Below are positions 2,879 through 63,614 of a stretch of DNA of 64,000 bases, in pieces; position 1 is the stretch's first letter, and every line of letters starts with the position of its first letter. This DNA comes from Xylophilus sp. GOD-11R. Lineage in GTDB: Bacteria > Pseudomonadota > Gammaproteobacteria > Burkholderiales > Burkholderiaceae_C. The translations under genes were made by a program, and so were the position numbers. Location: positions 930,001-994,000 of the forward strand of contig NZ_CP137854.1 in the NCBI RefSeq assembly GCF_033546935.1. Reading direction: 5' to 3'. The notes under the pieces were generated by a model. That model was not told the origin of the DNA. It did no database searches and worked only from the letters and a program-made list of their open reading frames with translations.

Positions 2879-2882
2879 ATCC

Positions 2883-44755: not shown

Positions 44756-44763
44756 GGCCAGCC

Positions 44764-45663: not shown

Positions 45664-47066
45664 GTCGCGCTCCGTTGGCCCAGTGCAGGCAACGAGGGGT
45701 TTGAAGATAGCTTTCGAGCCTTTCCTGAGAGGCGGCTGCTCGAAGAAATGGATGCCAAGACCGGAAGCTCAAGAAAATAGGCGAGGTCTTCAGTCGACCG
45801 CACCCGCCTGTTCATGAGTTCGACGGCCAATGCAACAGCAATCCCTAGAAGCGTGCCGACAAACACGGATGCCAACATGTTGAGAAGAACGCGAGGGCTG
45901 GACGATGCCAACGGGGGCGTTGCGATGGAAAGCGTGGCGATATTGGTCTGGTTCGAGAGGCTCTCAAGTCGACTCTGTGCCGCGCGTTGACTAACTGCTT
46001 CAAACTCGCGTTGCGCTGCGGCGACGTCGCCGCGAAGCACATTGAGTTCATTGCGATAGTTGTTCATTTCGATCACGCGAGCTTTTTGATCGGCCACGAC
46101 TTTTTGCAGCTCGCGTTCGCGTTGTTTGCCAACTTGATAAGACGTATTGATCGAAGCGGTAATGCGCGAGATCTCGGAATTGAGTTGCCCTTTGAGACTG
46201 TTCAGTTCCGCTTCGGTCCGCAAAGTCTGCGGATGGTTGGACCCCAAGTTGCCGCTACTTTCCTGAAGCTTGGATTCGACCCGCGCAATGTCGGTTTTTA
46301 GGCTATTCACCAGGGGGCTCTGCATCACCTCGGCGACCGTGCTGCCAGCACCACGTTTGCTTTGGCTATCGGTCGTCATGGTCTGGATGGTTGCTAATTG
46401 AGTAGCAGCTTCATTCAGGCGCGCAGACTCGAAATCGAGGCGGTCATCCGATGCAACGATCCCGACTTTCTGCTGATAGGCGTAAAGGGCCTTTTGTGCT
46501 CCGTCCAGTTTGTCGCGTGATACCTTGGTCTGTTCCTCAAACCAGGCCGCATATAGTTTGGCTGGTTCTACTTTCAGATCAAGATTGATGTCGACATAGG
46601 CTTTCGCGAAGGCATTGGCAGCTGCCGCGGCAAAATCGGGATCGGAAGTTTTATAGTCGATCGTGATGACGTTGCTGTCGCGCGCCGGGCGAACGTCCAA
46701 GTTGCGCTGCAAATTGCTAGCCAGCCAACTGACCAACGTTCCTTTGCTATCGGTCGCTTCGACCCACTGGCTCCGCACCTCCGGATTCTTGTCGAGGCCC
46801 AGCAGCGTTACGACCCGTTGTGCCACCCGGTCGCTGTTGATGATGTCAACCTGCGTCGCCATGTATCCAGGAGCGACAAGGCCCGGCAGGAGCACGCCGG
46901 CAACGGGGTCTGGAGACTTGACGTCGACCATCACCGCGGCTGTCGCGGTGTAGCGTCGAGGCATTAAAGCCGTCACTATCGCTGCAATGGCAATCGTGCA
47001 GAAAAGTGTCAGAAGGGCGGCCTTATAACGGGCACGCAATATTAAAAGGAATTGGTGAATCGTCAT
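45660..47066 (-). CDS. epsF: Polysaccharide chain-length determinant EpsF (Wzz/GumC family)
   Basis: The product is 468 aa from MTIHQFLLILRARYKAALLT at 47064-47066. Membrane helices lie near residues 15-35 and 395-420, enclosing a periplasmic Wzz domain with a long coiled coil (about residues 170-370). The PRRYTATAAVMVDVKSPDPV start and SSPRVLLNMLASVFVGTLLG end are typical of polysaccharide co-polymerases. It sets chain length together with the EpsG kinase. It follows epsE by 30 bp. Confidence 0.93.
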   Translation of the reverse strand: MTIHQFLLILRARYKAALLTLFCTIAIAAIVTALMPRRYTATAAVMVDVKSPDPVAGVLLPGLVAPGYMATQVDIINSDRVAQRVVTLLGLDKNPEVRSQWVEATDSKGTLVSWLASNLQRNLDVRPARDSNVITIDYKTSDPDFAAAAANAFAKAYVDINLDLKVEPAKLYAAWFEEQTKVSRDKLDGAQKALYAYQQKVGIVASDDRLDFESARLNEAATQLATIQTMTTDSQSKRGAGSTVAEVMQSPLVNSLKTDIARVESKLQESSGNLGSNHPQTLRTEAELNSLKGQLNSEISRITASINTSYQVGKQRERELQKVVADQKARVIEMNNYRNELNVLRGDVAAAQREFEAVSQRAAQSRLESLSNQTNIATLSIATPPLASSSPRVLLNMLASVFVGTLLGIAVALAVELMNRRVRSTEDLAYFLELPVLASISSSSRLSGKARKLSSNPSLPALGQRSAT

Positions 47067-47096
47067 GGAATTCGCCCTATCGTGCAATTCATCTGG

Positions 47097-47903
47097 CTAG
47101 AAAAGGCTCTCTCGGACGTAAATAACGTCGTCGGACTGTATGGGGTCGGTAAGTTTGGGAGTAATGTCTTCCACCACTCCCTTGGCATTCTTCCGCGTGA
47201 GTCGAAGTCGCGTTTCGCTTCCACGTGGCGTCGGACCGCCTCCTTGCGCCAAGGCCTGCATGATCGTCATGCCACGTTCGATACGGTAGGGCCCTGGTCG
47301 TTGCGCTTCACCATAAATGTAGAAAACGGGCGCCCGATTCACGTAGATGGTGTCGCCGTCCTGCAAAGTGATCTGCTTGGTGGGGTCCATCGTTATAAAA
47401 AGGCCTGGAATATCAATGGTTTCTCTAAACTCTTTTCCATTGCGTACTCCAATGACGATGGCAACGTCATCACCGGTAGGCGTTACTCCCCCGGCCGCTG
47501 CCAGCATGTCGCTTGGGCGAGCGCTGTAATTTTCGAGCGGAAAGCGCCCAGGTCGGTTGACCTGACCAAGCACAGACACTTGCGACCCTCTGATTTGGCC
47601 GAGCGTGATGGTGACCTGAGGGTTCTTGACGAACTTCCCTTGCTGAAGAGCGTCCGCAATGGCCTTTTGAGCAGCGGTGACGCTCAAGCCACCGATGTTG
47701 ACTTTGCCGATGAGCGGATAACTGATAACGCCCGTATCCGGAACCCGTGTTTCGACGGCGAGATCAGGGTTTTGAAAGACTTGGATGCGAATATCATCGC
47801 CTGCGCCAAGTCGATAATCGGAGACGTTTTGCGCCATGCTCGGTAAAGACGCTGATAACACCAGCAGAGCAGTCAAAAGTCGGCTTCTAAATATTTTGAA
47901 CAT
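47097..47903 (-). CDS. epsE: Outer-membrane polysaccharide export protein EpsE (Wza family)
   Basis: The product is 268 aa with a signal peptide ending SMAQ (residues 1-25); there is no lipobox cysteine. The polysaccharide export (Poly_export) domain starts at DYRLGAGDDIRIQVF, followed by two SLBB domains (SVLGQVNRPGRFPLENYSAR; FYIYGEAQRPGPYRIERG). It would form the outer-membrane channel for the polymer. It has a good GGAG ribosome-binding site and belongs to the epsL-D-E-F-G-xrtB-epsI series. Confidence 0.95.
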   Translation of the reverse strand: MFKIFRSRLLTALLVLSASLPSMAQNVSDYRLGAGDDIRIQVFQNPDLAVETRVPDTGVISYPLIGKVNIGGLSVTAAQKAIADALQQGKFVKNPQVTITLGQIRGSQVSVLGQVNRPGRFPLENYSARPSDMLAAAGGVTPTGDDVAIVIGVRNGKEFRETIDIPGLFITMDPTKQITLQDGDTIYVNRAPVFYIYGEAQRPGPYRIERGMTIMQALAQGGGPTPRGSETRLRLTRKNAKGVVEDITPKLTDPIQSDDVIYVRESLF

Positions 47904-47929
47904 TCACTGGATCTCCGTAGGCTGATGCA

Positions 47930-48781
47930 TCACTTGGCAGGTGTTGGAACTGGTTCTGAAAATTCACCGAGGTAGCTGATTTGCGACTTCGATCTCAGGC
48001 TCTTGACTAGAGCAGATACATTTTGGCTAACGCTTTGATTGGCCAGAAACTGTGCGATTCGAGGACCGGCGACATTTTCCGCAACCGGCGCTTCCTGGAA
48101 ATTCTTGACAAAGACCATCGTAACCATCTGTTCATTGCCTGACACGATACCTTGCCCTTGTCGAATCCGGTAGAGCTTTGGAAGGATGTCCAGCGAAATT
48201 TGTTCCGAAGACCGTGCAGATTCGGTGCTAGCAAAATTCACACCGCGACCTTGCAGGATTTTTGCAACGTCTTCGCTGGTCCGTCCGGCTTCGACCCCTT
48301 CGATCGCGGCGGCTACCGCCTCCTTGTCGGCAGTCCGTGGCACATTGAATTCGGTGAACTGGAAGACGCGACGTTTGGCGAAAAGCTCCGGATGGTTGAT
48401 GTAGTAATCATTCACTTCCTTATCGGATGGCTTCGTGTTGCTCGCGGCGGCCGCTTTTAGATAAGCTTCTGCGAGTACATCCTTCCGGGCGTTTTCGAGC
48501 GCCATCTGAACATCGGGCGACCTGTCCAGCTTGTCCTCAATTGATTTTTGCACCAGCAGTTGCTGATCAATCAACTTTTCGAGTACTTGCCGCTTCAAGG
48601 ATGCTGCGGCTTCAGGCGATCCGGGGTTGGCGTTAGCGCGGGTCAGCAGATAGTTGATCTGGTGAAGTGAAATTTCAGTATTGTCGACCTTCGCGGCTAC
48701 CTGCGTTTGGCTTTCAGGCGCGTTTTTTCCTGAACAAGCCGAAATCACAAACAAAAACGCGACGGCGGCGCAACGCGTCAT
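47930..48781 (-). CDS. epsD: Peptidyl-prolyl isomerase-like lipoprotein EpsD
   Basis: The product is 283 aa from the ATG at 48779-48781. This start gives a lipoprotein signal, AFLFVISAC, with the lipidated Cys at residue 16. Starting at 48889 would overlap the epsL stop and give no signal. Residues about 30-130 are the SurA-like helical chaperone part (TEISLHQINYLLTRANANP), and residues about 135-240 are a degenerate parvulin-type isomerase domain. EpsD proteins of exosortase loci are thought to help fold or insert envelope components of the pathway. Confidence 0.85.
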   Translation of the reverse strand: MTRCAAVAFLFVISACSGKNAPESQTQVAAKVDNTEISLHQINYLLTRANANPGSPEAAASLKRQVLEKLIDQQLLVQKSIEDKLDRSPDVQMALENARKDVLAEAYLKAAAASNTKPSDKEVNDYYINHPELFAKRRVFQFTEFNVPRTADKEAVAAAIEGVEAGRTSEDVAKILQGRGVNFASTESARSSEQISLDILPKLYRIRQGQGIVSGNEQMVTMVFVKNFQEAPVAENVAGPRIAQFLANQSVSQNVSALVKSLRSKSQISYLGEFSEPVPTPAK

Positions 48782-48848
48782 TATCGGGCGAAATGAATTG
48801 GGCGCTGGGTGCGGTTGCACTGGTGTGTCCTTTGCCGGGTCAAGAATA

Positions 48849-50063
48849 TTAAAAGGATATTTGAGCCAAAAGGCCAATGGTTCGAGCATTAAAATCGAAC
48901 CCGGTAAAATTGGTACTTCTGTTGTTACGCTGGAACCAAGCGCTCAACTGCATTTTTTCACGAGGTTCCCACTCGATGCTCAAACGCGTCAGATTCAGAT
49001 GGTCCGAACGCTGAACGTTTGTGGCGCCAACCGGAGTTGCCCCCTTGAAGTTTCGGTGTGAAAATTCTTGGTTGAAGATCAGTTTTAGTTTTTCTTTGAT
49101 TTGCCATGACGGCGCAAAGGCGATACGGTCGGATTCCACGTAGCTCGAATAGACCGTCTGATAATCGGCAATCTGTCGGCTCAATGTTATCGCCAAATCC
49201 ACGCGAGGGCTCACCGACCAAAACAAAGTGGAGCTTGCATTGAGGCCGCTGTAGTCTCGAAAGTCGTAATTGCCGAAATTTTTCTGCAGGTACGACACTC
49301 GGGCATTTAGCAGCGTTTTTGCGCTTAAAAACCAGCGAACGTTGAGTTGATTCTCGGTTTCAGTATACGAAGATGGTAGAAAAAGCTGGGTTGCAAATGA
49401 AGCGTCGGAATAGTCGCCGCTGCCTCTCCGTATTGTGTAAACAATTTCTGATCCCGAAGGGAAAACTTTCTTCAATCCAGCGTCGACGGAATCTGTGCTG
49501 AAGGCTCTTTGTTCAATAATCGTGGCACTGTTTTTAACCTCTTGCCGATAAACAGAGCCGATCACTTGCCAAGTACCGTCGAGCTCATATAAACCTTGTG
49601 CGCGCGTCGTGGTGGCGATCCGTTTGTTTCGGACAGTGTAATTTCGGAAGTCGTTAAATCCGCTCAAATTTTCTTGCCTGTCGGCAAAGACACTTCCGCG
49701 AAACCTAGGAGTGAGGCTCCAGCCAAAGGTGCCGGTGTAGTTTAACGCGGTAAATCCGAGGTAGCCGAAATTTTTATAATCATAGTTGACCGCGTTGACA
49801 TTTAGCTTGACGTTCTGTAGTCCGTAATCCTTATCAAAATTCAATCCTGCCGTCGTCGCGTGGATGGTTTCGGCGGCAGAACTCCTGCCAATGAGTGCCT
49901 GCGCATCTCGACTTTTGGAAAGTAGAAATAGGTTGTCTGTGTGACTGATGCTATAGCTCGCCGACAACTGGAGCGCATCGTTCGGATTCGCGCGTGCACC
50001 CGTTGCAACGAGAAAAATTGGAATGCAATGTGCGGAAAAGATCCAGCCTGAAATCTTTTTCAT
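48849..50063 (-). CDS. epsL: Outer-membrane beta-barrel protein EpsL
   Basis: The product is 404 aa with a signal peptide ending ARAN (about residues 1-26). The rest is alternating polar/aromatic strands ending in a terminal Phe (TIGLLAQISF), as expected of an outer-membrane barrel. Composition and position match EpsL of XrtB loci. It may help secretion or anchoring of the polymer at the outer membrane. It is the first gene of the minus-strand eps series; no clear promoter was found within the gap upstream. Confidence 0.88.
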   Translation of the reverse strand: MKKISGWIFSAHCIPIFLVATGARANPNDALQLSASYSISHTDNLFLLSKSRDAQALIGRSSAAETIHATTAGLNFDKDYGLQNVKLNVNAVNYDYKNFGYLGFTALNYTGTFGWSLTPRFRGSVFADRQENLSGFNDFRNYTVRNKRIATTTRAQGLYELDGTWQVIGSVYRQEVKNSATIIEQRAFSTDSVDAGLKKVFPSGSEIVYTIRRGSGDYSDASFATQLFLPSSYTETENQLNVRWFLSAKTLLNARVSYLQKNFGNYDFRDYSGLNASSTLFWSVSPRVDLAITLSRQIADYQTVYSSYVESDRIAFAPSWQIKEKLKLIFNQEFSHRNFKGATPVGATNVQRSDHLNLTRLSIEWEPREKMQLSAWFQRNNRSTNFTGFDFNARTIGLLAQISF

Positions 50064-50396
50064 TTTATGACGAGCAGGGCAGTATTGTTTTGGAAGCTAT
50101 GGCTAAAGTGCCATCGGGGCGCCGTTGCAGGCGGGAAAAATGCACATTATTTTCAGAATTGAGTGCGCGCTGGTGACGATTTCTTGAAAAATTCGCTTGT
50201 CGGTTCTCACGAATGCCTTTCTCCCATGCAGTGCGGTGTCTTGTTTGAACCATGGATCGATTTCGACTCATTGTTCAAAATGGCTTACTCATCCAATCTC
50301 AACTCGCTATGTTATTTTTGATCAAATTGCGGGCTTGATTTTTTCTGGCTCCGACTCAGGGCGAGTTTTCACCAGTTTTATCTTACAGCCAAAAAC
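50064..50396. other. Gap between epsL and the terminator
   Basis: This AT-rich stretch should contain the epsL promoter on the minus strand. Only short frames without RBS are present. Nothing else can be recognised. Confidence 0.5.
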
Positions 50397-50428
50397 AATG
50401 GAGTACCTCGCGGTACTCCATTATTTTT
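50397..50428. terminator. Bidirectional terminator after the PEP-CTERM gene
   Basis: AATGGAGTACC (50397-50407) pairs perfectly with GGTACTCCATT (50412-50422), an 11-bp stem with a 4-base loop. T-runs lie on both sides: ATTTTTTC on the plus strand and GTTTTTGG on the minus strand. It lies 33 bp beyond the stop of the PEP-CTERM gene. Confidence 0.9.
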
Positions 50429-50454
50429 TCTCCGCAGAAGCGAAGTGTGGCAAA

Positions 50455-51027
50455 TTACCGATTCTTTTGGCGTCGGCGTGCGATGAAGCCCATCATGCCT
50501 AGGCCGGCAGCAAGCATCGCATAAGTTTCGGGCTCAGGCACGGGTGGAGCGATGTTCAACGGCGAGATCGCGATCAATCCAGTGTATGTGCTTACTCCGT
50601 TGCTCTTACCCGTGACGGCGAGGGTGTAAACCTGGCTTTCCAACAATGACGCATACGTCGAAAACCTCGTGTCGTTCGCAACAGGATTGGCGCCCGTCGG
50701 CACCAGATTTTTGATCGCGGGAAGAGACACTGGTGTCAGGCCGTTCAACGAAGCTTCATCGGCGAACGCTCCCAAGAACACTTGCATGCTCTGTACTTCG
50801 ATACCGTAGCCGGTAGAGAACTTGATGGAGGTGGTTGCGAAGCCTGCAGCGCTATCGAGCGGGGTGGAGAAATGCCAAAGGTCAGCGAATGTCCCGGTTT
50901 TCGTGACGGATGAAATGACTTTGGTTCCGGTGATAGCGCCGAGGTCGGTCGGGGCCGCTTGGGCCGGTGCCTGAAAACTGCAGGCAAGGACGGCAGCGAC
51001 CGCTGCAGCGGTAAATAGTTTGCGCAT
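50455..51027 (-). CDS. PEP-CTERM sorted protein (FxDxF type)
   Basis: The product is 190 aa from MRKLFTAAAVAAVLACSF at 51027. Residues 1-25 are a signal peptide ending AQAA. A TFADLWHF segment resembles the FxDxF motif of one PEP-CTERM subfamily. The C terminus is a textbook sorting signal: PPVPEPETYAM, then a hydrophobic helix (about 166-181), then a basic end ARRRQKNR. It should be exported, held in the inner membrane, and cleaved by exosortase B. It is the only PEP-CTERM protein in the window and has its own terminator. Confidence 0.95.
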   Translation of the reverse strand: MRKLFTAAAVAAVLACSFQAPAQAAPTDLGAITGTKVISSVTKTGTFADLWHFSTPLDSAAGFATTSIKFSTGYGIEVQSMQVFLGAFADEASLNGLTPVSLPAIKNLVPTGANPVANDTRFSTYASLLESQVYTLAVTGKSNGVSTYTGLIAISPLNIAPPVPEPETYAMLAAGLGMMGFIARRRQKNR

Positions 51028-51384
51028 GGTGATTTCCATAAAAGTAGAGGACAAGGGACGGAGGGGACGTCTTCAATGTCGCATGTCACCATCACAACTC
51101 TCAATAGACCGATGAGACTAGCTTGCAATGTCTCGCGTAACTCGTTGAACTAGCGCATTTCTCTCGCATCAATTACCTTATGCGACTGTCGTTGGTATGG
51201 GATGCGGTGAAGAATTGCGCTATTCTTCTTGTGTCAAGCTGTATCAACATGAATCATGAAATAGACGGAAGTGAGTGAACACACACATGTGGATTATTGA
51301 CAGGCTGGTGAGCAAGGCTGGTGATGCTGGGGTCCGGGGCAGTCGGCGGCTACGGGTGGATGCCGCCTAGATCGGTTTGACGTC
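51028..51384. other. Divergent control region of the PEP-CTERM gene and epsA
   Basis: A 357-bp gap between two divergent genes. It must hold both promoters. I found no convincing -35/-10 pair, no sigma-54 -24/-12 element and no strong ribosome-binding site for epsA. Confidence 0.5.
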
Positions 51385-52191
51385 ATGACATTCTTTTCAT
51401 CGCTTTCGTCCGATGACATCAGTCGTTACTTCCGGATCATTACGCAGGCCGTCAGCGTCAAGCGGCATTTCGATTTGCTTGTCTGGCTTCAGGGAGATGT
51501 GCAGGCGCACATTCCACACGACATTCTGGTTGCAGGATGGGGTAATTTCGAGCGCGGGACGTTGTATCACGATGTGGTGTCCGACCTGCACGGCGTTCGC
51601 TCTGAAAATATCGATTCAAAGGCGCTTACGCCATTTCTAAAATCACTTTTTCAACATTGGCTCAAGTACCAGAAGCGGCCGTTCGTGATTACCGCCAACG
51701 AAGCGGGTTGGTTCACGGATGATGTCGACCTTCAGCGAGAATTGGGGGACGGGTTGCAACGTGCCCGCTCCATGCTGGTGCATGGAATCAGCGATGAGCG
51801 TGGTCAACACGATTGCATCTATATCATCCTGAGCACAAAGACCATCTACGGCGACGCGGTCTGCAGCGCCATGGAAGTTTTGTTGCCTTACATCGATACG
51901 GCGCTCCGGCAGGTTGCGCACCTTCCGCATCAACAGAACAACGGAGACGTCGAAAAGCCAGTCGTCACGTCCACGGAAGCCTCGCCTGCAGATCTTTGGA
52001 ACCTGAGTCCGCGTGAGGTGGAGATCATGCATTGGGTTGAAATGGGGAAGACGAATTTCGAGATCGGCAGCATCCTCAATATCAGCTCGTTCACCGTGAA
52101 AAACCACATGCAGCGGATATTCAAAAAGTTGGATGTATCCAACCGCATGCAAGCTGTTTCTGCATTCAAGGCGGCACGGGCCAATGAATAG
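51385..52191 (+). CDS. epsA: LuxR-type regulator EpsA of the exopolysaccharide locus
   Basis: The product is 268 aa. Residues about 10-185 are the EpsA sensor-like region typical of XrtB loci (HFDLLVWLQGDVQAHIPHD, VLVAGWGNFERG region). Residues about 205-265 are a LuxR helix-turn-helix (LSPREVEIMHWVEMGKTNFE, FTVKNHMQRIFKKLDVSNRM). It probably controls eps transcription. It overlaps epsB by 8 bp (ATGAATAG), so the two are one operon. Confidence 0.92.
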   Translation: MTFFSSLSSDDISRYFRIITQAVSVKRHFDLLVWLQGDVQAHIPHDILVAGWGNFERGTLYHDVVSDLHGVRSENIDSKALTPFLKSLFQHWLKYQKRPFVITANEAGWFTDDVDLQRELGDGLQRARSMLVHGISDERGQHDCIYIILSTKTIYGDAVCSAMEVLLPYIDTALRQVAHLPHQQNNGDVEKPVVTSTEASPADLWNLSPREVEIMHWVEMGKTNFEIGSILNISSFTVKNHMQRIFKKLDVSNRMQAVSAFKAARANE

Positions 52192-53593
52192 TCAGGGCTC
52201 GACCGCCCGAGCCAGACGTCAAGTAGCGGCTCCCGGGCCTCGCGAGGGGTTGGTGGGCGTGATCGAGTCGATCCTGGAGCCGTGTGTCTTGATCGGCTCG
52301 CTTTGGATTCTTGCCGCGCACGCTTTGGGTGAGGTAACGGCGCCCTATATGGTGCTGTCGTTGATAATTTTTGCGCTAACTTTTCCCGGCCTTTCGCGTT
52401 CACAACTTCCAATCTGGCAACTTGCCGCGCGGGTCATGGTTTCCTGGGTTTGGATCGCCGCATTGTTATTGATGGGGGGATATGCAACGCGAGCGCTGCC
52501 ATTGTTCGACACTGGAGTGCTCGCCAATTGGCTCTGGGTAGCGCCTTCTGCACTTATCCTCGCGCTCCTGCTCCTTAAAAAGCTTGCGCCATGGATCACG
52601 GCGTTGCAAGGGGCCCCGCAAAAGGTCGTGATCGTTGGCGTAAATGCACAAGGTTTGGCACTTGCCGAGCGCATCAATCATGCGTCGTTGTCACGGCTGT
52701 CGTTTTCAGGTTTTTTCGACGACCGGGATTTCGTTCGCCTTCCGGCAGAAGCTTCTCAGTTTCGGTTGGGGATCGTGGATGATTTACCCGCTTATGTGAG
52801 AGAAAACGATGTTGCGGTGATATTTCTCTCGCTGCCCATGGCCGCCGAACCGCGCGTGCTTGAGATTCTCGATGCCCTCAAGGATACGACTGCTTCGATT
52901 TACTTCGTTCCAGATATGTTTGTGACTGACCTTATTCAAGCGCGGGCATCAAACGTGGAAGGTATTCCGGTCATCGCGGTCTGCGAAACGCCATTTCATG
53001 GAATGATGGGCGTAATAAAGCGCAGCAGTGACATGGTTCTCGCTCTCTTCATTCTGTGCTTGATCGCGCCGCTGATGATCGGCCTTAGCATCGCGATAAA
53101 GCTCACGTCGCCCGGCCCGATTATTTTTCGTCAACGTCGGTATGGCCTAGACGGAAAGCAAATCACAGTCTACAAGTTTCGGTCGATGCATGTCGGGGAA
53201 GACGATGAGGCAGTCCGCCAAGCCAAGCGAAACGACAGTCGAATCACCCCCCTGGGGGCTTTCATGCGTAAGACGTCACTTGATGAACTTCCTCAGTTCA
53301 TCAACGTGCTTCAGTGGCGGATGAGTATCGTAGGTCCTCGGCCACACGCGGTGTCTCACAACGAGTTGTATCGCAAATTGATCAAGGGGTACATGGTCCG
53401 GCACAAGGTCAAGCCCGGAATCACGGGATGGGCACAAGTCAACGGATTTCGAGGCGAAACAGAAACGCTGGACAAGATGCAATCTCGAATAGAGTTCGAC
53501 TTAGATTACTTGCGTAACTGGTCGTTACGATTGGATTTGAGCATCATTCTGCAGACCGTTCGCCTGGTATTCAAAGACCACCGGGCATACTGA
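52184..53593 (+). CDS. epsB: Undecaprenyl-phosphate sugar phosphotransferase EpsB (WcaJ family)
   Basis: The product is 469 aa from MNSQGSTARARR at 52184, overlapping the epsA stop. There are four N-terminal membrane helices (about residues 30-145), a Rossmann-like CoA-binding-like region (VVIVGVNAQGLALAE, about 160) and a C-terminal bacterial sugar transferase domain, with KRSSDMVLALFILCLIAPLM, GPIIFRQRRYGLDGK, YKFRSMHVG, TSLDELPQFINVLQ and MSIVGPRPHA. It loads the first sugar phosphate onto undecaprenyl phosphate. It is the start of polymer assembly and the partner of the glycosyltransferases at 39.8-42.3 kb. Confidence 0.95.
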   Translation: MNSQGSTARARRQVAAPGPREGLVGVIESILEPCVLIGSLWILAAHALGEVTAPYMVLSLIIFALTFPGLSRSQLPIWQLAARVMVSWVWIAALLLMGGYATRALPLFDTGVLANWLWVAPSALILALLLLKKLAPWITALQGAPQKVVIVGVNAQGLALAERINHASLSRLSFSGFFDDRDFVRLPAEASQFRLGIVDDLPAYVRENDVAVIFLSLPMAAEPRVLEILDALKDTTASIYFVPDMFVTDLIQARASNVEGIPVIAVCETPFHGMMGVIKRSSDMVLALFILCLIAPLMIGLSIAIKLTSPGPIIFRQRRYGLDGKQITVYKFRSMHVGEDDEAVRQAKRNDSRITPLGAFMRKTSLDELPQFINVLQWRMSIVGPRPHAVSHNELYRKLIKGYMVRHKVKPGITGWAQVNGFRGETETLDKMQSRIEFDLDYLRNWSLRLDLSIILQTVRLVFKDHRAY

Positions 53594-54504: not shown

Positions 54505-54672
54505 ATGAAGATCGGAAATTCGGCTGAACCAGATGTTGACCATGCCGTCTCGTGGGAAGCGTCGGTAAACCCCCGCACTTGGCGGTCATGGTGCATCCGG
54601 CACGAGCGGGCTACCGTGGGTGCGAAGGTCGTCAGTGCGTGGTTCGGGAAAAAATTCGGCTGTCGATCATGA
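54505..54672 (+). CDS. Possible 55-residue small protein upstream of the response regulator
   Basis: The frame from ATG 54505 has a good ribosome-binding site (GTGGGAG, 54491-54497) at 7 bp spacing. Its stop overlaps the next gene start as ATGA (54669-54672), the coupling seen between real genes. It encodes a Trp/Arg-rich protein (MKIGNSAEPDVDHAVSWEAS start) without recognised family, membrane helix or signal. It could be a leader peptide for translation of the response regulator rather than a functional protein. Confidence 0.45.
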   Translation: MKIGNSAEPDVDHAVSWEASVNPRTWRSWCIRHERATVGAKVVSAWFGKKFGCRS

Positions 54673-55367
54673 CGGTTGGGACGACTGCGCTCGAGGCGCC
54701 ATCCGCAGGTGCCGGTGTCTCGAAAGCTATCCACGTAGCGGTACTGGATGACCACGCCGTGGTGCGGTACGGGATTGAACTCCTGACCAAAAACGGTATT
54801 GGGTTCGCCTGGACGGGGGCGGCCGCTACCGCTGCGGAACTGCTGGGCCTATTGGCAAGCCGGCCCTGTCACGTCCTGGTACTCGATTACCAGCTCTCCT
54901 CACGTGAGATCGATGGCTGGAGCCTTGTTCGGCGCATCAGATCGTATTTCCCGCACGTGCGCATCCTTGTCTACACCAGTCACGAAAGCAAACAGGTTGC
55001 CGACGTTGTACGAAAGGCAGGAGCCCATGGCTTTCTGGCAAAAAGCGCAGGACTGGAGCCTTTGCTGCACGCGATACGTGCCCTCGCCATGGGCGAAACA
55101 CTTTTTGCTAAACCATCCCACTCAGCCGACAAATGGGCAGGTCTCGGTGGGGCGGCCGCTGCGCTTTCGCCGCGCGAAAACGAGGTGTTGCGCTGCTTTC
55201 TTCAGGGTATGAGCGTGACCAGCATCGCCTTGAAATTTCAGCGAAGTGTGAAGACGGTAAGTTCTCAAAAACGTGCCGGTTTCCGGAAACTAGGCGTACA
55301 CACCGACCACGAATTCCTGAGACAGTACGGCAACGAACGCATCGCCGTTCATGAGGGGCAGCGCTGA
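54669..55367 (+). CDS. NarL/RcsB-type response regulator
   Basis: The product is 232 aa from MTVGTTALEAPS. Residues about 20-140 are a receiver domain: AVLDDHAVVRYGIE gives the acidic pocket, VLVLDYQLSSREIDGWSLV the phospho-acceptor Asp, YTSHESK the Thr/Ser, and FLAKSAG the Lys. Residues about 155-215 are a LuxR-type helix-turn-helix (LSPRENEVLRCFLQGMSVTS, RSVKTVSSQKRAGFRKLGV), closest to RcsB/FixJ. Phospho-signalling residues look intact, unlike in the kinase-like neighbour. The stop overlaps the following SARP-type gene (TGATG). A role in controlling type III genes is inferred from position. Confidence 0.85.
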   Translation: MTVGTTALEAPSAGAGVSKAIHVAVLDDHAVVRYGIELLTKNGIGFAWTGAAATAAELLGLLASRPCHVLVLDYQLSSREIDGWSLVRRIRSYFPHVRILVYTSHESKQVADVVRKAGAHGFLAKSAGLEPLLHAIRALAMGETLFAKPSHSADKWAGLGGAAAALSPRENEVLRCFLQGMSVTSIALKFQRSVKTVSSQKRAGFRKLGVHTDHEFLRQYGNERIAVHEGQR

Positions 55368-56765: not shown

Positions 56766-58277
56766 TCAGCCCATGCTGGTCTGGCTGGGCGTCTCGTTGT
56801 AGTAACGACGATAGCCAGCCGTCAGCGCGGTCCGATTCTTGATGCCGTGTTTCATGGCCACCTCCATCACGCCCGCACCGGTTGCTTCCTGCAGGTCTTC
56901 CCTGATTTTCTGCATGCGATGCCGGCGAAGCACTTCGCGCGGCGACAGACCGATGTGCTCCTTGAACGCCAATTGCAATGCACGTTCGGAAACGCCGATG
57001 ACATTGGCGATGTCGTTGATGGACAGGCTGGGCATGTGTGCGTGGGCCACCATGTATTGATAGGCGCGACGATAGCGAGCGGGAAGTCGGGCACTGATGT
57101 CGTCCTTGACCACTGCGTAGTGACTCGACGGCTTTTCGTCGTAGCGCTGGGAGATCGGGTAGACGTGTCGCATGGCCTGCATGGCCAGCAAGGCGTAGTT
57201 GGCATACATCGTCAGCCCTTCGTCGGACAGGCCTTGCAGCAAGCGCAGCTTCGCGTAGCAATACACCAGCTGCCGCTGCTGGGGGTCGGTTCCATCGGCG
57301 TTGGCCAGGCTGCGCTGCAGGGTAGTGGAGCCGCCGCCGACGATCAGGATCTCGGCGATGTGGACCAGCTTGCCGGCCAGTGCCGCCTGTGTCATTTCCA
57401 GCACCACGGTCTGGTGGCATTGCGGCGACAGCTGGCGCGTGTGGCTCAGGCAGTTCTGCACGGTGAGGGTGTCGCACGACTGACCGCGTGCGAGGGCCAG
57501 CAAGCGGGCCAACTGATCGGCACGCTGCCGAACCAGTCGGCTGGAGGCGCCATCGCAAGGGCCGGACGCCTGCTGCATGACCGGTGGTTCCACCACAGCG
57601 CTGCCCGCGCCCAGCGACTGCCAGTAGATGTCGTCCCGCAATCCTTGGGATTGCTGCACCGCGTTGCGTACGTTGAAGTCAAAGGCCATGAGCAGCATCA
57701 GTTGCTGCCAGCCGAAAGCACCCAGGCCCGCCGCTTCTTCTGCGCCGGTGGTCAGCAATTCACGTGCTCGGGCACGCAGGCCGGATTCGAAGAAGACACC
57801 CGCCAGGAGCGCGTGGGCCTCCAAACGCAATGCAGCCGTGCAGGTGCTTCGGTGGACTTTCTGGAAACAGCTCGCAGCCGTTTCGAAGCGTCGCTGGAAG
57901 AGGGCGAGCAGACCTGCCGACCGGCATGAGAGCGCTTCCGCGTCGACCGACGGTTCCAGGGCCTTCAGCGACTGGCGGTAGACGTCCTCTGCTTCCTCGA
58001 ACGCGCCACGCAGCAGGTGGATATCACCGCAAACCTGTCGCAATCTCGCAAGCTGGAGCGGTTCGGTGTTGGTCTCGCTGGCGCTGAGCACGGCTGTCAT
58101 GGCCTCTGACAGGCGGCCCTCGGCCATGCAGAGCGACGCGGGTGGCGCGATGGCGCCGCAGTCGATCGTGGAACTGATGAGCAAGTAGTGGTAGGCAATC
58201 ATCTTGGAACCGGGGTCAACCGATAGAGGGCGGGATTCCTTCAGTGTGTCGAGCCTCGATGGCTGCGGCACTTGCAT
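56766..58277 (-). CDS. AraC-family activator, HrpB/HrpX-like
   Basis: The product is 503 aa from the ATG at 58275-58277; an internal ATG at 58202 is possible, and neither has a strong ribosome-binding site. Residues about 50-360 are helical and TPR-like (AFEEAEDVYRQSLKALEPSV; LEAHALLAGVFFESGLRAR). Residues about 400-500 are an AraC DNA-binding domain: SINDIANVIGVSERALQLAF, GLSPREVLRRHRMQKIREDL and the second helix-turn-helix near KNRTALTAGYRRYY. Size and layout match HrpB of Ralstonia and HrpX of Xanthomonas (about 476 aa), which bind PIP boxes. Three PIP boxes lie within 1.4 kb. A candidate PIP box also lies 220 bp upstream of this gene itself. Confidence 0.85.
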   Translation of the reverse strand: MQVPQPSRLDTLKESRPLSVDPGSKMIAYHYLLISSTIDCGAIAPPASLCMAEGRLSEAMTAVLSASETNTEPLQLARLRQVCGDIHLLRGAFEEAEDVYRQSLKALEPSVDAEALSCRSAGLLALFQRRFETAASCFQKVHRSTCTAALRLEAHALLAGVFFESGLRARARELLTTGAEEAAGLGAFGWQQLMLLMAFDFNVRNAVQQSQGLRDDIYWQSLGAGSAVVEPPVMQQASGPCDGASSRLVRQRADQLARLLALARGQSCDTLTVQNCLSHTRQLSPQCHQTVVLEMTQAALAGKLVHIAEILIVGGGSTTLQRSLANADGTDPQQRQLVYCYAKLRLLQGLSDEGLTMYANYALLAMQAMRHVYPISQRYDEKPSSHYAVVKDDISARLPARYRRAYQYMVAHAHMPSLSINDIANVIGVSERALQLAFKEHIGLSPREVLRRHRMQKIREDLQEATGAGVMEVAMKHGIKNRTALTAGYRRYYNETPSQTSMG

Positions 58278-58497
58278 TCCGCTTGCATCTGTCTAGGACG
58301 ATTCCTAAAGCGAAGCGGATGGTGCGGGTACCGCGTGTGTCGCTGGACTTTCAGCAACGACGCCCTACCCGGCGGAGTCGGTTCAAGTCCGTGGTTTTCG
58401 CGGCGGGCTGGTGGTGGTCATGTCTCGCTTGTCTGGTTCATCAAAGATCTGCAGCGACCCATGATCCATTCGGGCTCTTCGGGTTTTTGCAGCTCAG

Positions 58498-58522
58498 ACG
58501 AAGTTGTGTCGAGCAAACCGAA
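58498..58522 (-). promoter_or_regulatory. Candidate PIP (hrp II) box upstream of the HrpB/HrpX-like gene
   Basis: On the minus strand TTCGG-N15-TTCGT (TTCG at 58522-58519 and 58502-58499, 16 bases between) fits TTCGB-N15-TTCGB. A GATCAT at 58466-58461 is about 31 bp downstream but is only a partial -10. The surrounding 293-bp gap (58278-58570) has no gene. Confidence 0.5.
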
Positions 58523-58570
58523 AGGCGACGAGACGCTCATGCCCATACTGGCTATCGCCCTCGGGACGGC

Positions 58571-59419
58571 TTAGTCGTCGATCTGGTTCCCGTCGAGCGG
58601 GCGCTGAGCCAGCACGGGCTTCGCAGCCTGATTTGCCGCCATATCGGTGGGCGCTTTCATCGGTGCCGGAGCAAGAGCCAACTCCTTCGCGCGTTTGAGT
58701 TGGGCGTTCATGGCGATGACTTCGGTCAGTTGGCGCGGATTGAAGGTGAAGTGCTGGACTTGACCAACCCCGATTTGCCGAGCCTGCTCATTCAGACGAT
58801 CGCCGAGTTGCCTGGCGAGGTATCGGCAGGTTTCGGCGTAGCGGGTGCCATCGACGTCCCCGACAATGCCCATTTTGATTTCTTCGTCAAGCGCATCCTG
58901 CATCTCGCGCTCAAGCTCGCGAATGCCGTCCCAGATGTCTGTGCCAACGAACTTCAGGAGCTTTTCCATGGCAGGGGAGCTGGGCGGGATCAAGCTGGTG
59001 CTGACGTTGGCGACCAGTTTCACCATCGCGTTTTCCGAGGCCCGCAGAAAGTTGGCGATGGTGGTTTCCAGCGCTGCCAACTGCTCCGGCGAGCCATTGG
59101 CCAGCACGTGGTCGCGCAGCGCCAGGTATTGGCCGGCCTGGTCGTCGATCTGTTTGAGCATGCTTTCCAGAGCATCACGCGCGATTTCCTCGACCCTCGA
59201 GGCCGGCATCGAAATGGCATCGACCGCCGTGGACTCCTGAACACTGAAATGGCCTCCTGCGGCCGCAGGAGGCGCGCCGAGCAGATCCGAGAAGCGTTCG
59301 TCCTCCCGGGGCACTTCGGCTGATTTCGCGCCGGCTGCATTCGCGTCCTTCGTTCGGGCAGCAAGCGGTGAGACCGAGCTCTGCTGAGCTGCGGACACGT
59401 GTGGGGTCGGGAAGTACAT
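58571..59419 (-). CDS. Unrecognised protein under PIP-box control, type III secretion locus
   Basis: The product is 282 aa from MYFPTPHVSAAQQSS at 59419, with AAGGAA 8 bp upstream; the frame extends further but through the promoter. Residues 1-60 are Ser/Ala/Pro-rich and lack a Sec signal or hydrophobic helix, as in type III secreted proteins. Residues about 75-235 are mainly helical (ISMPASRVEEIARDALESML, LAALETTIANFLRASENAMV, IWDGIRELEREMQDALDEEI). The C terminus is Pro/Ala-rich. A perfect PIP box with a correctly placed -10 drives it. I do not recognise a family; candidates are a secreted effector, translocator or gatekeeper of the Hrp system. Confidence 0.75.
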   Translation of the reverse strand: MYFPTPHVSAAQQSSVSPLAARTKDANAAGAKSAEVPREDERFSDLLGAPPAAAGGHFSVQESTAVDAISMPASRVEEIARDALESMLKQIDDQAGQYLALRDHVLANGSPEQLAALETTIANFLRASENAMVKLVANVSTSLIPPSSPAMEKLLKFVGTDIWDGIRELEREMQDALDEEIKMGIVGDVDGTRYAETCRYLARQLGDRLNEQARQIGVGQVQHFTFNPRQLTEVIAMNAQLKRAKELALAPAPMKAPTDMAANQAAKPVLAQRPLDGNQIDD

Positions 59420-59454
59420 GTCGGCGATTCCTTGTTGTCGGTTCGATGGATCAA

Positions 59455-59517
59455 AGCGTAGGCCTGGGTCTCGCAGGCGGGCTGCCGAGTGGGCGAAGCC
59501 CTGCGGCGGCAGGCGAA
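59455..59517 (-). promoter_or_regulatory. PIP box and -10 for the unrecognised gene at 58571-59419
   Basis: Minus-strand TTCGC-N15-TTCGC (TTCG at 59517-59514 and 59497-59494, 16 bases between) is an exact match to the consensus. After 32 bases comes TACGCT (59460-59455), matching the YANNNT -10. The predicted transcript starts about 30 bases before the gene. Confidence 0.85.
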
Positions 59518-59616
59518 GTTGTGATGGCCCGGGTGCCGATTGGCGAGGGGCGGCCTGCATTTGTTCGTCTTTCCGACATCTCGCGAAGGCCCATCCAGCC
59601 TCAACACGATGAACGG

Positions 59617-59677
59617 TTCGCAAAACGGGACGCAGCTTCGGGTGGGGTGGTCTCAAAAGTAAGCGAGTCCCTACGCT
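59617..59677 (+). promoter_or_regulatory. PIP box and -10 for the sctQ operon
   Basis: Plus-strand TTCGC-N15-TTCGG (TTCG at 59617-59620 and 59637-59640) is an exact match. After 30 bases comes TACGCT (59672-59677), the same hexamer as in the divergent promoter. The sctQ start lies 52 bp further on. Confidence 0.88.
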
Positions 59678-59728
59678 CGCTTCAAATCCAATGCCATCCC
59701 GCTTCGTCCAGCAATCCATCCCTTCGCC

Positions 59729-60793
59729 GTGAACGCCGCATTCGTCAACCTGTCACGCGCCTTGCCTTCGGCCGACGGTGCAGCCGTGCGTCTTCGGCGC
59801 TGGGCGGGTCGGACGGTCTCGCGTGGCGCGCAGCCGAATTTCTTCGCATTTCGGACCGATTTGACCCCTTCGGCGCCCATCGCGCCGGATGCGCTACTGG
59901 CGATCGTGTGTACTTCCGTCGGCGAATTCGACCTTGCCCTGGAGCCTCGCCAATGGCCTGACCTCGCCTTGGCCGCCGGGTTGCCCGACGCCGGCCGGCG
60001 TAGCGCGGTTGCCATGTTGTTGCTGTCGGAATGCATCGGCGCTTCGGCAGCCGAGTTGCTTTCGGTCGACCTGCGCACCACCGCGCCGCCAGGCAGCCGA
60101 AGCATCGGTGTCGAGCTGAGCCGAGGTGACAGCAGGGCGCAGCTTCTTCGAATGGACGAAGCCCTCTTCCGCTCCCTCGAGCGTTCGCTCGACAAAACGC
60201 CGCCGCGCCTGGCGCAGGGCGCACTCCGCATGCGTCTGCCGAGCCGTGTCGTGCTCGCATCGCGCGGCCTTTCGAACCAGGTCTTGCAAAGGCTGCGGCA
60301 GCGGGACGTTCTGCTGCTTCCCGACGTTCCGGCGCGACCCGGTGCCGGTGCGGCCGGCATGCCCATGGTCAACGCATGCCTGGCCTGGGGCCCCGGCTCG
60401 CGAGGTGCGCTGCGCGTGCCGGTTCTTCTTCAGGACACCAAGATGACCCTTACCTCTCCACTCGATCTGGCCATGCCGGACATGGCGCCCGTTCCTTCGA
60501 CGAACTCGCATCACGGCCACGCCGGCGATGCCGGAATTTCGGATGCGCTCGCCCGTATGGAGCTTCCCGTGCAGTTCGAAATGGCCGGCCCGTCGCTGCA
60601 GCTCGCCGATATCGCCAGCCTGGTCGCCGACGACGTGCTCGAGCTGCCGATGGCGGTCGAGCAATCGCGGGTTCGCATGGTCGTCGCCGGGCAGTGCGTC
60701 GGCCTGGGCGAACTCGTCGCGGTGGGCAATCGGCTCGGCGTGCGGATCCTGCGCATGGACCTCGCCAGCGAAATGCCGGGGGCAGGTTCATGA
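59729..60793 (+). CDS. sctQ: Type III secretion cytoplasmic ring protein SctQ (HrcQ)
   Basis: The product is 354 aa. The start is the GTG at 59729-59731; no in-frame ATG fits the promoter position, and there is no strong ribosome-binding site. The N-terminal two thirds are poorly conserved. Residues about 275-345 are a SpoA domain (LPVQFEMAGPSLQLADIASL, VRMVVAGQCVGLGELVAVGN, LGVRILRM), the part shared with FliN/FliM. SctQ forms the sorting-platform ring under the injectisome. It is one complete protein here, not split as in Pseudomonas HrcQA/QB. It overlaps sctR by 4 bp. Confidence 0.93.
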   Translation: MNAAFVNLSRALPSADGAAVRLRRWAGRTVSRGAQPNFFAFRTDLTPSAPIAPDALLAIVCTSVGEFDLALEPRQWPDLALAAGLPDAGRRSAVAMLLLSECIGASAAELLSVDLRTTAPPGSRSIGVELSRGDSRAQLLRMDEALFRSLERSLDKTPPRLAQGALRMRLPSRVVLASRGLSNQVLQRLRQRDVLLLPDVPARPGAGAAGMPMVNACLAWGPGSRGALRVPVLLQDTKMTLTSPLDLAMPDMAPVPSTNSHHGHAGDAGISDALARMELPVQFEMAGPSLQLADIASLVADDVLELPMAVEQSRVRMVVAGQCVGLGELVAVGNRLGVRILRMDLASEMPGAGS

Positions 60794-61440
60794 ACTTCCA
60801 GACGGGCGATGTCGTCACGCTGGCAACCCTCGCCATCCTGGCGGGCTTGCTGCCGTTCTTGGTGATGTCGTTGACTTCGTTCGTCAAGATCGTGGTGGTG
60901 CTGAACCTCGTGCGCAACGCGCTCGGCGTGCAGCAAGTGCCGCCGACCATGGTGATCAACGGCCTGGCGCTGGTGCTGACCGCCTACATCCTCATGCCGG
61001 TCGCCCGCGAGACGATGGATGCGGTCAAGAACAAGCCCGAGGCCAGCATTTCGCAGCGTGCGGTCGACCTGATCGAGGCTGCCAGAGAGCCATTTCGCAG
61101 CTTTCTTTCCAAGCATGCGCACGAACGCGAGAAGCGCTATTTCCTGAAGTCGGCGGCCGACCTGTGGCCGAAGAAGGATGCCGAAGACCTGCGCCCCGAC
61201 GACCTGATGGTGGTGGCGCCGGCTTTCGTCGTCAGCGAGCTGGCGGAGGGTTTCCGTATCGGCTTCCTGCTGTACCTGGCGTTCATCGTGGTCGACTTGG
61301 TCGTCGCCAACGTGCTGGTGGCCATCGGGCTGACGCAGGCCTCGCCCACCAACATCGCCATTCCCCTGAAGCTGTTGCTGTTCGTCGTGCTCGACGGCTG
61401 GTCGGCCCTGTTGCACGGCCTCGTGCAAACCTATCGTTGA
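60790..61440 (+). CDS. sctR: Type III export gate protein SctR (HrcR)
   Basis: The product is 216 aa from MNFQTGDVVTLATLAILAGL at 60790 (ATGA overlap with sctQ). The family signature FVKIVVVLNLVRNALGVQQVPP and the four membrane helices are clear, as is SELAEGFRIGFLLYLAFIVV in the C-terminal half. SctR forms the helical export gate with SctS and SctT in the inner membrane. Confidence 0.97.
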   Translation: MNFQTGDVVTLATLAILAGLLPFLVMSLTSFVKIVVVLNLVRNALGVQQVPPTMVINGLALVLTAYILMPVARETMDAVKNKPEASISQRAVDLIEAAREPFRSFLSKHAHEREKRYFLKSAADLWPKKDAEDLRPDDLMVVAPAFVVSELAEGFRIGFLLYLAFIVVDLVVANVLVAIGLTQASPTNIAIPLKLLLFVVLDGWSALLHGLVQTYR

Positions 61441-61450: not shown

Positions 61451-61714
61451 ATGAATCCCGACGACATCGTCCGCTTCACATCGCAGGCCATGCTGGTCTG
61501 CCTGCTGGCTTCGTTGCCGGCCATCGTGGCCTCGGCCGTCATCGGATTGCTGGTGGCCTTCATCCAGGCCGTCACGTCCTTGCAGGACGCCAGCATTTCG
61601 CACGGCATCAAGCTCCTGATCGTGTCGGCCGTCATCGCGGTCACCGCTTCGTGGTCGGCTGCGCGGATCGTCCATTTCTCGCAGACCCTGTTGCAGGCGG
61701 CGTTCCGTCCATGA
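61451..61714 (+). CDS. sctS: Type III export gate protein SctS (HrcS)
   Basis: The product is 87 aa with two membrane helices (about residues 12-38 and 50-72). The segment GLLVAFIQAVTSLQDASISH is typical of the FliQ/SctS family. It lies 10 bp after sctR, with GAGG as ribosome-binding site, and overlaps the next gene by 4 bp. Confidence 0.96.
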   Translation: MNPDDIVRFTSQAMLVCLLASLPAIVASAVIGLLVAFIQAVTSLQDASISHGIKLLIVSAVIAVTASWSAARIVHFSQTLLQAAFRP

Positions 61715-62619
61715 GCAATTTCCTGCCTCCCATCAGCCTGGTGCCGGTGAGTCCGACCTACCGGCAGAACGCGCCCGGCACCGGTAGCGGCCAGGCACTG
61801 CCGACGGCACCGGGCGTCGCCGCTCCGGCGACGCCCGACCAGCAGATCTCGCCCGAGGTCCATGCGCTGCTGGCGCTGCCGACAAGGCCGCGGGCCGCGC
61901 AGCGCGGCAACCGCGCGGCCGACGGCGGGCGCAAGGAGCGAGGTGAAGACTCGTCGCCCGAGGAAGAAGGCCTGTTGAATGGGGCGCTCGGTGGAGCACG
62001 TTTCCATTACGGCGGTGGCTCCGGCCAGTCCTCGGAGCAGAACGGCGAACAGCAAGGCGATCGATCGGCGGGCATGCGACCGCTACCCAGGCTGGAGGAC
62101 GGATTTCTCGACGCGACGACCAAGTCCGCATCGCCACCCTTTGCCAACATGACGGCGTACGCCGCCGGCCTGGCGGAGCGTTGCGGGGTCCATCACGCCA
62201 CCCACGGCCAGGAGTCCATGAACGCATTTCTGCGCACCGTGATGGTCGGCCTGCTGCCGAGCTTCATGCGCGACCTGGTCGAACAGATCGCCGAGACCGT
62301 CAAGACCGATCGTGCCGGCAAGGGCTTCGATGCGCTCGGCCCCATACGGCTTGCCTGCCAGGAGTTTCTGGACCTGATGCGACCGCTGTATGCGCGTTAC
62401 GCGAACGGGCCTTATCTGGTGTCCGACGCCCGCGATGTGCTGTGCGCCGCCCAGGACCTTCTGGCGCAGGAAGCGGATCGATTCGAGCATTCAACGCCAC
62501 GCGTGGCGACCTTGCTCACCGACAGTGTCCGCCCCTTGTTGCCTGTACTGGTCATGGCCGGAATGCCCCGCCCGCTTCAGATCGAGGCGTTTGAGCAGCC
62601 CGTGGGGAGCGCCGCGTGA
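61711..62619 (+). CDS. HpaA-position protein of the type III operon
   Basis: The product is 302 aa from MSNFLPPISLVPVSPTYRQN. Residues 1-130 are Pro/Gly/Ser/Glu-rich and probably disordered, with no Sec signal. Residues about 150-290 are helical (MNAFLRTVMVGLLPSFMRDL, GPIRLACQEFLDLMRPLYAR). It sits between sctS and sctD, the place of HpaA in Xanthomonas (hrcS-hpaA-hrpD5), a secreted control protein. Sequence alone does not establish homology. It overlaps both neighbours by 4 bp, so it is certainly translated with them. Confidence 0.7.
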   Translation: MSNFLPPISLVPVSPTYRQNAPGTGSGQALPTAPGVAAPATPDQQISPEVHALLALPTRPRAAQRGNRAADGGRKERGEDSSPEEEGLLNGALGGARFHYGGGSGQSSEQNGEQQGDRSAGMRPLPRLEDGFLDATTKSASPPFANMTAYAAGLAERCGVHHATHGQESMNAFLRTVMVGLLPSFMRDLVEQIAETVKTDRAGKGFDALGPIRLACQEFLDLMRPLYARYANGPYLVSDARDVLCAAQDLLAQEADRFEHSTPRVATLLTDSVRPLLPVLVMAGMPRPLQIEAFEQPVGSAA

Positions 62620-63614
62620 AGACCTTGCGTGTTCTGGCCGGCCTGCATGCGGGGGCGCGACTGGCATTGGCGCCAGGGCTTTACCGCGTCGGCAGCTCCG
62701 CCATAAGCGATGCCCTGTCGACGCCGGACGCCACGCCCATCGAACTGCTGGACTGGACCGAGCCAATGCTGTCGATCGCAGTAGATGCGGCCGGGCGCGT
62801 GATCGTATTGCCGTCAGGGGACGAGGCAACCGGGCAAGCCTCACAGGCAGCGGCTGGCGATGCTTGGGCAGACCTGGTTCCGCGCCGGTTCGGCGACGTG
62901 GTGCTGTGCGTCGGTGCTTCGGACCAGCCGTGGCCCGACGACGCCCAACTGGTGGCGCTGCTGAACAAGCCGGTTGTCGGTGAATCGAGCGCGCCGGCGA
63001 CGCGCCGCGCCTCGTGGGGCATGCGCGCCGGATTCATCGGCGCCGGATTGCTGGCGGCTGTCAGCGCGCTTTACGGCCGATCCGACGCCCCGACGCACCA
63101 GACGCCGCCGGCGCGCCCCGAACAGGCGGCGCAGTTGCTCAAGCAGAGCCTGGAAAGCCGAGGCTTCAAGGAACTGCAGGTACGCGAGGAGCGCGACGCC
63201 GTGATCCTCGCCGGGCTCGTGCCCGACGCCAACGCCGGTCGCTCCGTGCGCAGCGCGACGCTGGAGGTGGAGCGGACATCCGGCGTACCGGTCGTGATGC
63301 AATGGGAAGTCGCCGACGACATCGCTTCCACGATCGAAGCGGCCTTGCGCCTCCCCGGCGTTCACGCCCGATACGTGGGCGCCGGGCGCTTCGAGATCGA
63401 AGGCATCGTGGCCGATCCCGCCGCGGTTCGCGAGAGCGCTGGACCGCTGACCAAGGATCTGGGGGCGAATGTGAAGGGCATCAATTTTTCCCTGGAGCGC
63501 CGCCACCGGGCGGCCGCACCTTTCAGTTCGGCCATCGTGGCCGACGCCCTGCGCTATTCGGAGCGACCCGACGGCGCCAAGGTGTTCCAGGACAACACCG
63601 CCATAGCGAGGTAG
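62616..63614 (+). CDS. sctD: Type III inner-membrane ring protein SctD (HrpD5-like)
   Basis: The product is 332 aa from a GTG start (62616) that overlaps the preceding stop as GTGA. Residues 1-125 are the cytoplasmic FHA-like part. One membrane helix lies at about 133-151 (MRAGFIGAGLLAAVSALYG). The periplasmic part has ring-building and BON-like repeats (LKQSLESRGFKELQVREERD, LRLPGVHARYVGAGRFEIEG). SctD forms the outer of the two inner-membrane rings. It is somewhat short compared with YscD (about 420 aa) and similar to HrpD5 of Xanthomonas. Confidence 0.85.
   Translation: MKTLRVLAGLHAGARLALAPGLYRVGSSAISDALSTPDATPIELLDWTEPMLSIAVDAAGRVIVLPSGDEATGQASQAAAGDAWADLVPRRFGDVVLCVGASDQPWPDDAQLVALLNKPVVGESSAPATRRASWGMRAGFIGAGLLAAVSALYGRSDAPTHQTPPARPEQAAQLLKQSLESRGFKELQVREERDAVILAGLVPDANAGRSVRSATLEVERTSGVPVVMQWEVADDIASTIEAALRLPGVHARYVGAGRFEIEGIVADPAAVRESAGPLTKDLGANVKGINFSLERRHRAAAPFSSAIVADALRYSERPDGAKVFQDNTAIAR

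Follow-up and report, generated by a model that had tools for sequence, protein, structure and literature searches.

The DNA between sctQ and the gene divergent from it in Xylophilus sp. GOD-11R very probably holds two back-to-back promoters of the HrpX/HrpB PIP-box type, by which the TPR-AraC regulator encoded nearby would activate both an sct unit of a type III secretion system (T3SS) and the divergent gene. We analysed a stretch of 64,000 nucleotides of this genome (G000:C1:930001-994000), referred to here as the window, and its features are collected in the table. This reading is supported by the elements themselves, which match exactly, by their retention in X. rhododendri (G002) and by an excess of such composites in both genomes that carry the regulator. 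The HrpX promoter of Xanthomonas has been described as TTCGB-N15-16-TTCGB-N30-32-YANNNT (PMC3285194; also PMC4652430 and PMC7831014). Both elements of the window are exact TTCGB-N15-TTCGB matches in sense direction, followed by TACGCT after 32 bases on the minus strand and 30 on the plus strand, letter for letter as the first-pass annotation had given them. The boxes lie 74 nt from the ATG of the divergent gene and 88 nt from the GTG of sctQ, each in the correct direction. The regulator would bind each pair of TTCG half-sites and recruit RNA polymerase to the TACGCT hexamer, activating transcription from predicted start sites. The plus promoter would then drive sctQ-sctR-sctS-(hpaA position)-sctD, and perhaps collinear sct genes past the window, and the minus promoter a fast-evolving, probably secreted protein.

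Table. Features of the window (hyphens in the strand column denote the minus strand; G002, X. rhododendri)
Feature	Position	Strand	Remarks
LuxR-family response regulator nearest RcsB	54552-55367	+	candidate activator of the AraC regulator gene
AraC-family regulator (P0004)	56766-58202	-	TPR-like N half and HTH_18; ORF extends to 58277, start conserved in relatives 58202
Palindrome TAGGA-N4-TCCTA, RcsB-box-like, upstream of regulator gene	58294-58307
-10-like GATCAT, N31 past third box	58461-58466	-	A...T retained, Y absent; GATCAT at N31 also in G002
Third PIP box TTCGG-N15-TTCGT, upstream of AraC gene	58498-58522	-	candidate self-activation site; positional counterpart L033:2328-2352 in G002
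Divergent gene (P0001), 282 aa	58571-59419	-	disordered ends, helical middle (predicted)
-10 TACGCT of divergent gene, N32 past box	59455-59460	-	exact; TACGCT at N31 in G002
PIP box TTCGC-N15-TTCGC of divergent gene	59493-59517	-	exact match; G002 counterpart L033:3150-3174
PIP box TTCGC-N15-TTCGG of sctQ unit	59617-59641	+	exact match; G002 counterpart L033:3270-3294
-10 TACGCT of sctQ unit, N30 past box	59672-59677	+	exact; hexamer and spacing identical in G002
Fourth PIP match, adjoining sctQ start	59703-59727	+	exact match
sctQ, first of plus-strand unit	59729-60793	+
sctR	60790-61440	+	FliP family, 7.1e-62
sctS	61451-61714	+	Bac_export_3, 3.3e-18
hpaA-position gene between sctS and sctD	61711-62619	+	position only
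sctD, HrpD5 type	62616-63614	+	HrpD5 6.6e-67, under curated cut-off

Hrp2-type clusters comprise an HrpD5-type sctD, a hrpB1-like gene and sctQ, R, S, J, L, N, T, U, V and C. This whole set was found here, the HrpD5, SctQ, SctL, SctU and HrpB1 matches falling under their curated cut-offs. The boxes had been proposed to divide sctQ-sctR-sctS-sctD from an unrecognised gene, and their position agrees with that. However, a further gene lies between sctS and sctD, which had no family match in profile searches and which is tentatively called hpaA from its position. The supposedly unrecognised gene is a fast-evolving one with a syntenic counterpart. Past sctD, the next collinear gene is some 600 bases away, with one small ORF on the plus strand in between, so that continuous transcription from sctQ onward is assumed.

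In X. rhododendri the pair of promoters was found in the same place and orientation, reading TTCGC-N15-TTCGG-N31-TACGCT on the minus strand and TTCGC-N15-TTCGC-N30-TACGCT on the plus strand. When the intergenic DNA was aligned, most half-site letters and the CCTACGCT of both promoters were retained amid diverged sequence. The genes follow one another in the same order in the two genomes from the regulator past sctV as far as sctC, and the arrangement of regulator and divergent promoters was seen in these two only. The divergent protein (282 aa; 232 aa in X. rhododendri) is very variable, with 32% identity over 107 residues in BLAST, about a third of its length. No homologue past this counterpart was found in a protein search, and profile searches returned no family match. 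In a structural model built from two sequences (mean pLDDT 67.5), residues 1-57, 60-67 and 254-277 have low confidence and helices lie between 73 and 249; fold comparison with VIA-align gave middling helical-bundle matches only. The promoter, the place, the disordered start and the rapid change fit a secreted substrate or a translocon part, for which HpaT (PMC5483457) and HrpF are examples, and we consider the product of the divergent gene a probable substrate of the T3SS.

The variability of this protein and its narrow distribution could also mean that the divergent promoter is minor or vestigial and that the region, with genuine PIP-box promoters, serves mainly sctQ. This reading is compatible with the main one, and we consider it quite unlikely, as the box and TACGCT of the divergent gene are kept as well as those of sctQ and the gene has retained its reading frame and its place in both genomes.

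Very unlikely, in our view, is that a TTCG-rich stretch yielded the boxes by chance and that ordinary promoters serve the genes. TTCG is indeed common in the window (474 and 394 on its two strands), and shuffled windows contained a mean of 2.53 bare boxes, with at least four in 21 of 100 shuffles. In the 5.13-Mb genome (a contig of 5,127,500 bases) the bare box occurs 110 times, near the 90 of the reversed-pattern control. The argument of the first-pass annotation, that three such eight-base motifs in 1.1 kb are not accidental, therefore fails as stated, and there are four boxes rather than three. What stands is the clustering, since all four exact matches of the window fall inside 58498-59727 (1.23 kb; chance about 3e-4), and the improbability of the composite. 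YANNNT at N30-32 follows two of the four boxes, namely the divergent pair. Resampling the window 300 times (order 1) gave a mean of 0.13 composites, two being reached once, and TACGCT never occurred as the -10 of a composite. Against chance also speak the retention of both composites by X. rhododendri in diverged DNA and the -10 excess described below.

Regulators of the HrpX/HrpB family are about 480-500 aa long, with a TPR-like N half and a C-terminal AraC helix-turn-helix (HTH). The regulator of the window has this build, with an ORF of 503 aa, 478 aa from the conserved start, and matches to HTH_18 (2e-17) and TPR_16 (4.9e-4, under the curated cut-off). It is 78% identical to protein P0005 of X. 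rhododendri, and among seven genomes of the genus, its own included, it was found in these two (E 0 and 1.7e-243). G001 encodes two more distant regulators (27-28%) and a T3SS of another layout, G004-G006 gave HTH-domain matches only (in G005 at E 1.6e-5 or weaker), and G003 gave no match to the regulator. Matches of 29-35% occur in five other genomes of the family; there, as in G001, sct genes and PIP boxes lie nearby. PIP boxes with a -10 were likewise present at 72 named regulator loci, and none of the relatives examined bears HrpX or HrpB as its record name.

The genome-wide scan for the composite, which had been suggested as a check, was run, and the -10 was read behind 100 of the 110 boxes, with expectations taken from other offsets. 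A hexamer with A second and T last (A...T) followed 29 of the 100 at N30-32 (7.2 expected), namely 8 at N30, 18 at N31 and 3 at N32. Y stood first in 15 (3.5 expected) and T in 4 (0.8 expected). After removal of the five sites of the T3SS cluster, A...T was found behind 26 of 95 (7.0 expected) and Y first in 13 (3.4 expected). Strict TANNNT was not significant outside the cluster (2 of 95, 0.79 expected, P 0.19; Poisson values assume independent sites), and the A...T excess there comes from hexamers that begin with C, G or A. In X. rhododendri, A...T at N30-32 followed 16 of 30 loci among the matches listed, of 154 boxes (2.3 expected). G003 and G005, which are without the regulator, showed no excess (4 of 59, 4.6 expected; 30 loci each among the matches listed, G003 having 91 boxes and G005 74, with one repeat omitted). 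Relative to the reversed control, the number of bare boxes varied among genomes without the regulator (91 against 63 in G003, 74 against 137 in G005 and 67 against 40 in G006). Six other genomes encode a regulator of this type, and in their clusters A...T stood behind 27 of 36 boxes; at the 72 named loci it stood behind 155 of 205. Identical boxes were counted once in both sets, and loci matching the HTH only were retained among the 72; the sequences within each set are related, so P values overstate the case. The promoters were thus supported as HrpX/HrpB-type by their conservation, the nearby TPR-AraC gene, the -10 excess and the composites beside distant regulators. That another AraC-family protein of the genome activates the boxes is hardly credible: AraC-family HTH domains are common and adjacency is no proof, but the neighbour is the sole match to itself at E <= 1e-3 in its genome, and the -10 excess tracks the regulator, being present in its own genome and X. 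rhododendri and absent from G003 and G005, the latter with HTH-only matches. The sctQ unit and the divergent gene would both depend on the neighbouring AraC regulator.

The first base of the -10 was T in 106 of 155 cases at the named loci and in 4 of 29 in the own genome. This comparison is uneven, as the named loci are regulator neighbourhoods and the own set is genome-wide, with about seven background cases, so that it offers only a suggestion of a relaxed -10 with mostly C or G as first base genome-wide. At 21 of the 29 sites with a -10, including those of the divergent gene and sctQ, an ORF of no less than 150 aa begins 40-135 nt past the box, and the same holds for 14 of 23 sites without a -10 (sites with enough flank); the presence of an ORF thus does not by itself separate the two kinds of boxes. 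The fraction of Ser and Pro in the first 30 residues was 0.29 behind boxes with a -10 (n=21), 0.13 behind those without (n=14, P 7e-5) and 0.14 in 33 long ORFs of window positions 1-55000 (P 2e-5); this measure was picked after the sequences had been viewed, and ORF starts were assigned by script. These Ser/Pro-rich starts suggest that genes behind composite boxes may include dispersed effector genes. Ten of the 21 candidates were searched against Pfam. Seven had no match at E 0.05, and the others matched PPR repeats (4e-15), a ketopantoate reductase C-terminal domain (2e-25) and, marginally, one further family (0.009).

Several loci of the scan are described here in their own right. Four genes of 597-639 aa lie at L218:4277-14366 (G000:C1:1029277-1039366), and every one of them follows a PIP box that has an A...T -10. 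By eye, their N-terminal parts resemble F-boxes (L-P-x-E-L-L or similar), and Pfam gave no match to any of the four at E 0.05. The adjacent genes L226:1927-2586 and 2838-3542 (near G000:C1:4339238 and 4340117) also lie behind PIP boxes; the first is the one with PPR repeats in Pfam and the second is PPR-like by eye. At loci L241, L243, L255 and L258 of X. rhododendri a wider -10 pattern is shared, CA.AGT followed by similar letters, as from duplicated promoters.

Two further exact boxes are present in the window. The -10-like hexamer of the third box, GATCAT, does not read YANNNT. No ATG or GTG ORF of more than 12 residues was found by script to start 40-135 nt behind this box in the window, and the first large gene behind it is that of the AraC regulator. 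The box may serve self-activation of the regulator gene. In X. rhododendri an ORF of about 70 residues sits between the counterpart of the box and the regulator gene, which argues against the regulator as its direct target there. The fourth box, which lacks A...T at N30-32, probably matches by chance.

Elsewhere in the cluster, an imperfect box (TTCCG-N15-TTCGC-N31-GAAATT, G000:C1:1006811-1006835, minus strand) precedes a 342-aa gene, sctU and sctV, and the matching place in X. rhododendri has the same mismatch, spacing and -10. Composite sites with up to one mismatch numbered 5 in the own genome (0-5 at control offsets) and, in a modest rise, 9 rows for 8 sites in X. rhododendri (2-6 at control offsets); with counts so near the control, only its conservation supports the imperfect box. 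Upstream of sctC no composite site was found with up to one mismatch allowed. In both genomes an exact box precedes the 640-aa gene that comes after sctT; this box is followed by AACAAT at N30 in X. rhododendri and by no A...T at N30-32 in the own genome. In three relatives (L043:16163, L045:6463 and L040:7595, the latter two on the minus strand) a PIP box with a -10 overlaps the start of sctD, whereas the sctD start in the window has no exact PIP box.

The response regulator gene on the other side of the AraC gene encodes a protein nearest to RcsB, with 8.5e-25 and 87.5 bits in NCBIfam against a curated cut-off of 235, and its best solved relatives are RcsB structures (PDB, 2e-24). Its HTH reads KTVSSQK where RcsB has KTISSQK, a stretch that we take to be the recognition helix. 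A protein encoded near the X. rhododendri cluster shares 64% identity with it; in nine other genomes searched the best match was 30-34% in eight, and there was none in one. The palindrome TAGGA-N4-TCCTA upstream of the AraC gene occurs once more in the own genome (G000:C1:265442-265455) and twice in X. rhododendri (G002:C1:4256958-4256971 and 1450879-1450892). In both genomes one site lies upstream of the regulator gene and the other before a start MKQTL, a likeness judged by eye. The palindrome was not found in G001, G003, G005 and G006, where a reversed-pattern control gave 1-3 per strand. The RcsAB box consensus is given as TAAGAATATTCCTA (PMC12388358); TAGGAATCGTCCTA, read on the regulator strand, agrees with it at 11 of 14 positions, the consensus coming from another lineage. 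The RcsB-like protein is a candidate activator of the AraC gene. Exosortase, exopolysaccharide and PEP-CTERM genes with an XrtB-associated regulator adjoin the RcsB-like gene (window 43835-53593), and several genes of this region are kept in X. rhododendri.

A more far-reaching proposal, which we put forward tentatively and hold to be rather doubtful, is that of a rewired switch. The RcsB-like protein would switch on the AraC gene via the near-unique palindrome, the AraC regulator would activate itself through the PIP box, making the switch bistable, and a relaxed N-A-N-N-N-T at effector genes as against TACGCT at the apparatus would order the machine before its effectors.

The system resembles that of Xanthomonas HrpX in half-sites, spacing, -10 position, the AraC-type activator and the sct and candidate effector genes behind boxes. 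That sctC has no box is reminiscent of Xanthomonas hrcC, where a PIP box is also missing although HrpX induces the gene (PMC7831014). Unlike in Xanthomonas, the regulator gene is itself preceded by a box whose -10-like hexamer is conserved (Table 4 of PMC4652430 has a '-' for hrpX in its PIP column), most -10 hexamers of the genome-wide set begin with C or G, and the response regulator beside the cluster is LuxR/RcsB-like, whereas HrpG is of the OmpR type (PMC4652430). In Acidovorax citrulli, where 78 boxes were listed and 41 showed significant HrpX regulation, perfect PIP boxes likewise precede sct and scattered effector genes (PMC6913199), a likeness seen here from sequence only. The divergent pair, the box before the regulator gene and the RcsB-like palindrome are absent from the A. 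citrulli description in the available part of that source. HrpB of Ralstonia solanacearum, likewise of the AraC type, activates sct and effector genes through the hrpII box TTCG-N16-TTCG (PMC3815929, PMC6913199); it is downstream of HrpG (PMC3815929), while the candidate input here is RcsB-like. In Burkholderia glumae a site for the response regulator GluR with an inverted repeat lies upstream of the AraC gene hrpB (PMC9452761), as is predicted for the binding site here. GluR, however, is OmpR-type and encoded outside the T3SS cluster (PMC9452761), whereas the RcsB-like protein is encoded near it. Compared with RcsB and the RcsAB box, the lineage and the target gene are different here, the site is predicted and the protein falls under the RcsB cut-off. 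Further literature sources were PMC6122198 and PMC5829831. Among the matches listed in the literature search, work on HrpX with RcsB was mostly on Erwinia, and no title dealt with a Xylophilus type III system.

The promoters are thus ordinary members of the PIP-box class, in a genus for which our literature search found no description, and the surrounding wiring is a predicted variant and the part that deserves specialist attention. The same-genus genomes without the regulator serve as an internal control when PIP boxes are assessed by their -10 and not by the box alone. Our analysis extends the HrpX/PIP-box regulon to Xylophilus, with 19 dispersed candidate genes beyond the window pair, and most of the ten put to Pfam are without a family. 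The predicted RcsB-like input and feedback loop could explain a switch-like onset of secretion.
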